A stretch of 32,255 nucleotides of DNA, taken from assembly GCA_030697685.1 (NCBI GenBank), contig JAUYPF010000053.1:1-32255 (forward strand), read 5' to 3'. The stretch comes from a bacterium. GTDB taxonomy: Archaea; Nanobdellota; Nanobdellia; SCGC-AAA011-G17; GW2011-AR17. The position numbers and the translations under genes are program-made. The notes under the pieces are model-generated. The model saw only the letters and a list, made by a program, of their open reading frames with translations. It had not been told where the DNA came from and made no database searches. Positions 13,948 to 16,993 of this stretch are shown one piece after another. Each line of letters starts with the position of its first letter. Position 1 is the stretch's first letter.

Positions 13948-15057
13948 ATGCAACTTCCTAAAGAACTCTATGTACATGAAGCAGATGCAAAGCGTATCTG
14001 GGAAAAATTTAATTTACTAGACCAAAGAATACTTTTTTTACAAAGAAATACAACAAGAATGGCAATGGAATTTGGAGAAGAAGACTACCCTTTAAGGCCA
14101 TTTCATTTTACATTATTTCCAGGAAGTACAAATGAAGAAGTAAATAATCGTATGGCGGAAACAATGCTCAGAGGAAGAACAGCAATCAATACTCTTCTCA
14201 GAGAACATCTTGATGAGAGCCAATATGATTTCTTCGAGCTTCCTGAAATTCAAGATCCCTTTAGTTTCCATGCATTTATCAAAGATGCCTATCATAATTA
14301 TCATTCTACCATAAAAAGAAATGCTAGTGCTCGTGCACGCTATGAAGCCTATGCAGCAATTCGTGCAATGGAACTCGGCTATAGAGTAGGAACGATTGAT
14401 GAATGCCCCTTAGTGCTCAATGCAGTACAACATTTTCCATCTGTAAAAATAACCTTAGAGAATATTTTTGGCTTTTCACATAAAATGCCTACAGAAAAAG
14501 AAGGTATGGAAAATTCTTGGGATACGAATCTAGGCATAAAAATATATTCCTATGATGATACAGCAATGCATACAAGAGTAAAATATTTAGAAAAAGATGG
14601 ATATACTCCTCGTTATAGTTCTATCTTGATGAAAATCTATAAAGAGGGGGAATTTGCAGAGGAACTGAAGGATTATTTAGGTGCAGAACTCATTGTAGAA
14701 AATGATGAAGAAAGAGATTGTCTTGTAAAGTTCATAAAAAAGGAAACAAGTCTTACTGGTCATTTAGAAAAATGGAAAGATACACGAAAAGGAAAAGTTG
14801 GAACTGCTTCAAGTAAAGACTATGGGGTCCTAAAATGGATTCTCAGAGTTCCAGTACAAGTCTATAGGGATATACCTCAGGCTACAAAAATAGCATTCTA
14901 TGAAAGAGTCCCAATAGAAATACAAGTATTAACAATAAAAGATCATATTATCCGAACACAACAAACAGAAACAACACATAAGGCCTACAAAAGAAGACAA
15001 TTCCTAGAAATATTCCCTGCATTATTTCCTAGAGAGATATATGAAAATATCTATTAA
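13948..15057 (+). CDS. RelA/SpoT-like nucleotidyltransferase-fold protein (divergent)
   Basis: 369 aa: C-terminal half has RYSSILMKIYK, LKDYLGAELIV, SKDYGVLKWILRV, VPIEIQVLTIKDHIIRTQQTETTHKAYKRR in the order of RelA/SpoT domain motifs. Confidence 0.5.
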   Translation: MQLPKELYVHEADAKRIWEKFNLLDQRILFLQRNTTRMAMEFGEEDYPLRPFHFTLFPGSTNEEVNNRMAETMLRGRTAINTLLREHLDESQYDFFELPEIQDPFSFHAFIKDAYHNYHSTIKRNASARARYEAYAAIRAMELGYRVGTIDECPLVLNAVQHFPSVKITLENIFGFSHKMPTEKEGMENSWDTNLGIKIYSYDDTAMHTRVKYLEKDGYTPRYSSILMKIYKEGEFAEELKDYLGAELIVENDEERDCLVKFIKKETSLTGHLEKWKDTRKGKVGTASSKDYGVLKWILRVPVQVYRDIPQATKIAFYERVPIEIQVLTIKDHIIRTQQTETTHKAYKRRQFLEIFPALFPREIYENIY

Positions 15058-15718
15058 TAATCTGTAAGACTCTGTTGTGCAATTTTTTTATACGTAGCCC
15101 AAGACTTTCGAAATATTTCAGGGTATTTTTTTGCATTTTTCTTCAAAAAAGCCTGAGTAACAGGGTCTGCTGGATAACCGCTTCCCATTTTTCCATATTT
15201 CTTTTCTAAGTCAACAATAATCCTATCTCGTGTGACTTTTGCAAGAATAGAAGCAGCAGCAACCTGAAGATGTTTTTCTGCATTATGTTCTAAAACCAAT
15301 TCCATTTTTACAGTAAGTAAATTTTGGAGATATTCTTTGTATGCAGGAATATTATTGCTTGGACAATCTACAATTGCTTTGTCTGGTTTTAACTCATTAA
15401 GAATAAGCGCTGTTTTCATTGCCTCAAGAAAATTTAAATTAGTTGTATCAGAGTTCACTGCATCATCAATCTCTGCAGGTTCAATAATAATAAGTTTGTA
15501 TGCTTTTACAATTTTTTTAATAGGCTCAAAAAGAAATTCCCTCTTTTTTGCTGTAAGTAACTTAGAATCTTTCACACCAAGCTCCGCTAGTTTAGGGATG
15601 TCTTCTTCATCCACAACAACTCCACACATGACTAAGGGGCCAATGACAGGACCTATTGGCTTATTTCACCTAAATGAAATAGACTGCCAGCTTCATCAGC
15701 TCCTAAAAGTAAAGTCAT
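15054..15718 (-). CDS. rnhB: Ribonuclease HII, split by a 29-nt putative BHB intron; join(complement 15684..15718, 15054..15654), 211 aa
   Basis: Exon 1 encodes MTLLLGADEAG plus AG; exon 2 continues with A GGT CCT GTC ATT GGC = (R)GPVIGPLVMCGVVVDEED... Joined: GADEAGRGPVIGPLVMCGVV, the RNase HII catalytic N-terminus. TATA-like TTTATAT about 28 nt upstream of the ATG at 15718. Confidence 0.85.
15655..15683 (-). other. Putative archaeal BHB (tRNA-type) intron in rnhB mRNA
   Basis: Sense RNA: ..GAAGC UGGC AG^U C UAUUUCA UUUAGG UGAAAUA A GCCA AU^A GGUCC.. 4-bp central helix UGGC/GCCA, 3-nt bulges AGU and AUA, 7-bp inner helix; cuts after bulge nt 2 restore Arg AGA. Confidence 0.75.
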
Positions 15719-15773
15719 AAAGAAAAAATTATTCTCGAAGAATATAAAGTTTACTAAATAAAAAGTAAGCAAT

Positions 15774-16468: not shown

Positions 16469-16993
16469 TTACTCAGCCAGCATCACGCCTTTCTGGATAA
16501 ATATTCGCTTGTACTCCAAGCGTTTCTTCACATACTCCATCTGCACTTCTTTGCCTGTCATGCCTAAGACCTTGAAAAATGCCTGCAAATCTTTTTCATT
16601 CCTAATATCCCATGCATCTTTTGCAAAGCTTCCAATAACCATAGGAATCTTATATTTTCGGCAAAGGTGAATATTCTGTATAACCCTTCCTAAATCTTTT
16701 GCTCTTTGTAAAGAATGGAGTATACTTGAAAAAGAAAATCCAATCGCAACACTATGTTCCCTCGCCAATGCACAGAGCACATGATTCAAACCAGAGTTTC
16801 TTTGATGCATAAAATCTTTCCTTTGTCCAAGATGTGGATCAAGAAGAATATCTACATATTTTGAAGAAAGAGCCAGTCTATTAAAAGTATCATCTCCACC
16901 TTGTACAATAACTAACTCCTTGCTTTGGAGTTTAGGAATTTTTTTTAAAATTTCTGCTTTGTATCCAAATCCTTCGCATTGAATGATATCCAT
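16469..16993 (-). CDS. rnp3: Ribonuclease P protein component 3 (RNP3/Rpp30)
   Basis: 174 aa: VDILLDPHLG..DFMHQRNSGLNHVLCALAREHSVAIGFSFSSIL...HLCRKYKIPMVIGSFAKDAWDIRNEKDLQAF..LGM is the archaeal p30 PHP-like pattern. Confidence 0.88.
   Translation of the reverse strand: MDIIQCEGFGYKAEILKKIPKLQSKELVIVQGGDDTFNRLALSSKYVDILLDPHLGQRKDFMHQRNSGLNHVLCALAREHSVAIGFSFSSILHSLQRAKDLGRVIQNIHLCRKYKIPMVIGSFAKDAWDIRNEKDLQAFFKVLGMTGKEVQMEYVKKRLEYKRIFIQKGVMLAE

Follow-up and report, generated by a model that had tools for sequence, protein, structure and literature searches.

The 29-nt segment at positions 15655-15683 (minus strand) of the window, that is, of the whole 32,255-nucleotide stretch of DNA analysed here, is very likely an archaeal bulge-helix-bulge (BHB) pre-mRNA intron in rnhB, which encodes the DNA-repair enzyme RNase HII. 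The interruption of the gene, its conserved position among relatives, a covarying BHB structure, the exact restoration of an arginine codon, selection on exon 2, the presence of EndA and RtcB genes and tRNA introns of like design are all shown; splicing itself is inferred, as no RNA data are available. The insert has the properties of this class of introns. Its precise removal restores the conserved coding frame, exon and intron pair in a central helix of about 4 bp with a 3-nt bulge on either side, compensatory changes and intronless alleles occur in relatives, and the host encodes both a splicing endonuclease and an RtcB ligase.

Interruption of rnhB in the window

Read without splicing, the minus-strand frame that begins at 15718 gives MTLLLGADEAGSLFHLGEISQ and then meets a stop, after 21 codons. 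Excision of 15655-15683 (minus strand), TCTATTTCATTTAGGTGAAATAAGCCAAT, leaves 35 nt and 601 nt that together form a 636-nt, 211-aa ORF containing DEAGRGP. Exon 1 (35 nt, ATG...GGCAG, 15684..15718, minus strand) encodes MTLLLGADEAG, in which DEAG contributes the catalytic Asp and Glu, plus two nucleotides of the Arg codon; exon 2 (601 nt including TAA, 15054..15654, minus strand) runs from the last nucleotide of that codon to the stop. The intron site adjoins the catalytic D-E motif (DEAGR^GP), and among the four ways of keeping three nucleotides the 2+1 split alone gives Arg. An internal ATG at 15629 opens a 191-aa ORF.

The putative central helix consists of TGGC on the exon side (15686..15689, minus strand) paired over 4 bp with GCCA on the intron side (15657..15660, minus strand). 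The 29-nt intron is predicted to be excised between the cut AG^T in the 5' bulge AGT (15683..15685, minus strand) and the cut AT^A in the 3' bulge ATA (15654..15656, minus strand). Inside the intron, TATTTCA (15675..15681, minus strand) and TGAAATA (15662..15668, minus strand) form a 7-bp inner helix, whose matching columns covary, closed by the loop TTTAGG (15669-15674, minus strand). A C.A mismatch (15682/15661) lies between the inner helix and the 5' bulge, and the outer exon-exon helix is weak. The TATA-like box TTTATA (15742..15747, minus strand), 24-29 nt before the ATG, is compatible with a leaderless rnhB transcript, which remains a possibility only, promoter function being inferred from sequence alone.

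An earlier note on this locus had given the same coordinates, minus-strand frame, 29-nt removal and 636-nt, 211-aa ORF, and had stated that just one way of retaining three nucleotides yields Arg. Both claims held (2+1, of four), and the TGGC/GCCA pairing, AGT and ATA bulges, 7-bp inner helix, C.A mismatch and TTTATA box that it described are all present.

Elsewhere in the window, an RNase P p30 ORF (16469-16993, minus strand) aligns with its profile over positions 86-207 only, out of 214, so that the N-terminal portion is either absent or divergent.

Identity of RNase HII and selection on the gene

Compared with PF01351 (RNase_HII), the spliced protein scores 156.9 bits and covers profile positions 1-198, and exon 2 alone scores 137.0 bits; with the NCBIfam equivalog TIGR00729 the scores are 185 and 165.7 bits, respectively. 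Among solved structures, archaeal RNase HII enzymes come nearest to the spliced protein, and the alignment runs through DEAGRGP. No second rnhB was found in the window's genome (G000; 1.07 Mb, 92%-complete, 65 contigs, probably metagenome-assembled). The lineage is of the Nanoarchaeota/Woesearchaeota type (DPANN), a tiny uncultured archaeon whose nearest named relatives are 'Nanoarchaeota archaeon' UBA10136 and Candidatus Woesearchaeota contigs.

Exon 2 is under strong purifying selection, with dN/dS values of 0.034 for G000 and its congener G002 and of 0.048 for G392 and G470. The exon 2 sequences of G000 and G002 are 88% identical, yet their inserts are unrelated in sequence. The Asp of DEAG is invariant in 82 homologues, the second catalytic position is E or D, and this pair is kept by exon 1 in all intron-bearing rows. 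At the intron site itself, Lys replaces Arg in 5 of 54 intronless homologues, so Arg is near-invariant, not absolute. RNase HII without the catalytic Asp and Glu carried by exon 1 cannot work. Splicing should therefore be required for activity, and unspliced rnhB mRNA would yield no active enzyme; both statements are inferences.

The fourth catalytic Asp of RNase HII (HKAD) is Glu in about one third of the rows across the order, with or without an intron. The Glu of G000 was considered as a sign of decay, and this was rejected because intronless relatives share it.

Same-site inserts in related genomes

An HMM search detected rnhB in 89 of 103 genomes of the order, and many of the matches start at profile position 8-9 or cross a stop. 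Nineteen genomes of the order, plus G063, carry an insert of 22-35 nt between DE(A/S)G and GP, where homologues without an insert have a single codon, for Arg or Lys. Searching 378 genomes of the class and 371 of the phylum with a DNA pattern added G106, G171, G198, G322, G392, G409 and G470, confirmed the insert of G346 and revealed a remnant in G039; with the reversed pattern as a control, the same 378 and 371 genomes gave 0 matches. The total is 29 same-site inserts, with introns of 19-39 nt, in 15 families, and counts outside the order are lower bounds. The insert sequences differ among genomes and the site stays constant. Full-length rnhB genes hold 28 of the 29 inserts (28 genomes of the class), the 29th being a deleted remnant. 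Within the window's own genus, G000, G001 and G002 have the intron, and G003, G005 and G006 have an intronless rnhB.

With 82 rows in the RNase HII tree, 28 of them bearing the intron, no fewer than 21 changes of intron state are required; many forks are weak and this count is rough. The distribution is clearly patchy and may have arisen by recurrent losses, recurrent gains, transfer of the gene or some combination of these, among which no choice is made.

Some individual copies are unusual. In G039, an internally deleted rnhB remnant on C8 (L251) keeps its BHB intron beside an intact intronless rnhB. The rnhB of G003 (L045) has a long in-frame, intein-like insert after the GS of GSGYPSDP, and that of G030 (L047) has a long in-frame intein-like insert plus a BHB intron; the frames are 691 and 703 aa, respectively.

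Structure and covariation of the inserts

Cuts were chosen from structure only, as the best BHB with two 3-nt bulges, a 4-bp central helix and an inner helix. The cut so chosen restores Arg in 29 of 29 inserts, which with random cuts among the four frame-keeping options has a chance of 5e-10. G040 and G098 have the entire structure displaced by one nucleotide; there the codon is split A|GG and still encodes Arg. Most genomes have an insert whose length is not divisible by three, and 28 of the 29 unspliced readings run into a stop.

Strict BHB geometry was observed in 22 of the 29 inserts, compared with a mean of 0.1 and a maximum of 3 in 2,000 shuffles; the remaining inserts deviate by a single mismatch or by a shifted pair. 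In the 27-sequence alignment, standard pairs occupy 96.8% of the paired cells (60.4% when shuffled), and the covariation score is 0.928, against 0.190 for shuffled and at most 0.167 for slid controls. The shuffles ignore the relatedness of the genomes, which the slid controls retain. The Gly codon fixes two GC pairs, which show no variation, and the other six pairs all have two-sided changes; in the central helix, compensatory changes are seen in two of the four column pairs and the other two are constant (27 genomes).

The BHB-constrained fold lies no more than 1.3 kcal/mol above the minimum in 27 of 29 inserts, and 0.9 kcal/mol above it for the window's own copy. The minimum-free-energy fold of this copy on its own is unremarkable (z -0.94), and the case therefore rests on comparison. 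The outer exon-exon helix GAYGA/TCRTY was not significant as a signature (12/28 versus 12/54, p = 0.07).

Splicing machinery and tRNA introns of the host

The splicing endonuclease EndA is encoded in G000 by one gene (C13:25273-25533), in which the active-site Tyr, His and Lys are present as read by eye. EndA matches were found, in single copy each, in G000 and in 22 of the 24 genomes searched, which fits a homomeric enzyme, although this is an inference. RtcB was likewise matched in 22 of 24 genomes. No RtcB match was found in G001 and G088, and no EndA match in G001; these genomes are incomplete. The rtcB of G000 is present and appears to contain an intein.

Two tRNA genes of G000 carry BHB introns inside the anticodon stem, 29 nt in tRNA-Leu(GAG) (C46:4230-4346) and 24 nt in tRNA-Cys(GCA) (C35:15364-15459). 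ARAGORN misses or misnames both unless the introns are removed. The host must therefore already excise introns of this kind.

BHB introns in rtcB and cbf5

The rnhB intron is one of a set, with BHB introns of rtcB and cbf5, which are located outside the window, found in the same order. Fifteen rtcB introns of 28-33 nt occur in 11 genomes (G025 L182, G032 L183, G057 L184, G028 L297, G036 L287, G047 L288, G056 L283, G062 L286, G063 L301, G074 L285 and G099 L296), at the catalytic motifs HWG-YGF and FDI-NCGM, with two introns each in G025, G047, G063 and G099. Inteins occupy the same motifs in other relatives. The broken rtcB genes of G019, G029, G043, G049, G070, G083 and G089 showed no strict BHB at the two motifs.

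In cbf5, BHB introns of 13-29 nt are present in 13 genomes of the order (L260-L262, L264-L272 and L279). They split the catalytic Asp codon as G|AT in every case, and their central helix shows compensatory changes. When compared with Yokobori et al., they share the codon and phase of the crenarchaeal cbf5 intron. The cbf5 of G000 is uninterrupted (335-aa frame, no stops).

A whole-genome scan of G000 for BHB motifs and coding frame gave 147,231 raw and 1,582 filtered loci, among which rnhB ranks 12th; no further introns were called because the BHB motif alone is too common. Reciprocal tblastn between G000 and the complete genome G022 revealed no other clear intron, and short first exons escape this method.

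Proposed mechanism and alternative explanations

In the proposed mechanism, pairing of exon TGGC with intron GCCA would fold the transcript into a 4-bp helix between two 3-nt bulges. EndA would cleave each bulge after its second nucleotide, and RtcB would ligate exon 1 to exon 2, giving the junction GGCAGAGGT with the Arg codon restored as AG|A. The predicted product is the 211-aa RNase HII. Cleavage, ligation and release of a circular intron in the cell are inferred, there being no transcript data.

Other explanations were weighed against this reading. In translational bypassing, ribosomes would pass over the hairpin insert and continue from GGT, with the RNA left unspliced. The insert does contain a hairpin, and its length is mostly not a multiple of three. 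However, bypassing from GGC to GGT would give DEAG-P, losing both Arg and Gly, and so lacks the matched take-off and landing codons with a correct product that define such an element. Moreover, selection maintains an exon-intron pairing with two helices and two bulges that is exactly an EndA substrate, and the cut tracks the structure where this is shifted by one nucleotide (G040 and G098). Bypassing is thus very unlikely. No more credible is a pseudogene in decay, or a shortened enzyme that begins at the internal ATG at 15629. The stop after 21 unspliced codons and the 191-aa ORF could be read in this way, and the related G039 C8 copy really is a remnant. Nevertheless, this is the sole rnhB of its genome, with a dN/dS of 0.03; exon 1 retains the catalytic DE (second position E or D) in all intron-bearing rows, and a remnant would not retain covarying structures in 28 genomes.

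A sequencing, assembly or binning artefact could be suspected in a genome of 65 contigs that is probably metagenome-assembled. It is practically ruled out, as inserts of different sequence occupy the same site in 28 independent assemblies, including the single-contig G022; for the class of same-site inserts, an artefact is excluded. Removal by another route, as a self-splicing ribozyme or an intein, is equally remote. It is true that rtcB has inteins at the motifs used by its BHB introns, and that rnhB appears to have them at a different site, but a group I or group II ribozyme core takes hundreds of nucleotides against inserts of only 19-39 nt, most inserts hold in-frame stops, and no intein ORF is present.

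The BHB intron interpretation of the earlier note is therefore supported. Of the findings that would have refuted it, those pursued here (a second rnhB, a missing endonuclease, an artefact) did not materialize. A second intact rnhB was sought in the genome without success, the endonuclease gene was sought and is present, an assembly artefact was excluded because independent genomes carry different inserts at the same site, and comparison of relatives' rnhB revealed both intronless alleles and same-site BHB introns. Its statements on Arg and on the motif needed revision. The invariance of Arg held only in part, given the Lys variants. The relaxed motif held for the C.A mismatch in the window's copy and failed as a general description, most relatives having a strict 3-4-3 BHB. 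Nor does the window's intron stand alone, given the patchy rnhB introns across the class and the rtcB and cbf5 introns.

Significance and comparison with known systems

A 2020 study noted that, besides its own 5' UTR case, one archaeal mRNA BHB intron had been reported, that of crenarchaeal cbf5 (PMC7714728). Nothing on mRNA BHB introns in rnhB, rtcB or DPANN was found in the open-access literature searched, subscription papers and preprints being outside its scope. The present case would thus add a new gene, rnhB, and a new lineage to a known class, with novelty being provisional. Now rnhB is clearly a second affected gene, rtcB a third, and the cbf5 introns an independent set, all in a different lineage whose genomes have one endonuclease gene each. 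Annotation of DPANN genomes misses or truncates real enzymes, and intron gain and loss in archaeal genes becomes testable inside one genus. The question is also raised why introns occupy catalytic codons shared with inteins.

A bolder reading is that the tiny BHB introns of DPANN archaea make up a population that inserts repeatedly or moves horizontally, settling in catalytic codons of rnhB, rtcB and cbf5; the rtcB motifs are also intein sites, and the cbf5 codon and phase are those of the crenarchaeal intron. Repeated insertion at conserved codons of this catalytic kind is attractive because of the shared cbf5 site and the coincidence with inteins, but the evidence does not tip the balance for or against it. 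If it is true, the mRNA of rtcB, which encodes the splicing ligase, itself needs splicing, and an autoregulatory loop would result.

The cbf5 pre-mRNA intron of Sulfolobales and Desulfurococcales is 16-44 nt long, BHB-like and an EndA substrate (PMC2738675). Like the rnhB intron, it disrupts a catalytic motif, is conserved in position and not in sequence, and has intronless relatives. The rnhB intron differs in its gene, in its DPANN phylum-level lineage and in its far patchier distribution, and does not qualify as a cbf5 intron proper, which lies in cbf5 after the first nucleotide of the catalytic Asp codon. The genomes here have a single EndA gene each, whereas the crenarchaeal case has been linked to a hetero-oligomeric endonuclease (according to the title of Yoshinari 2006, cited in PMC12397907). 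The HVO_1309 intron of Haloferax volcanii, for which EndA cleavage was shown in vitro (PMC7714728), is likewise an mRNA BHB intron, but it lies in the 5' UTR and interrupts no coding frame. Archaeal pre-tRNA BHB introns, including those of tRNA-Leu(GAG) and tRNA-Cys(GCA) in G000, have the same 3-4-3 geometry and a similar size; they interrupt tRNAs, whereas the rnhB intron interrupts a reading frame. Finally, the rtcB and cbf5 introns of the same order are alike in geometry, size and placement at catalytic motifs, and differ in the genes that carry them.
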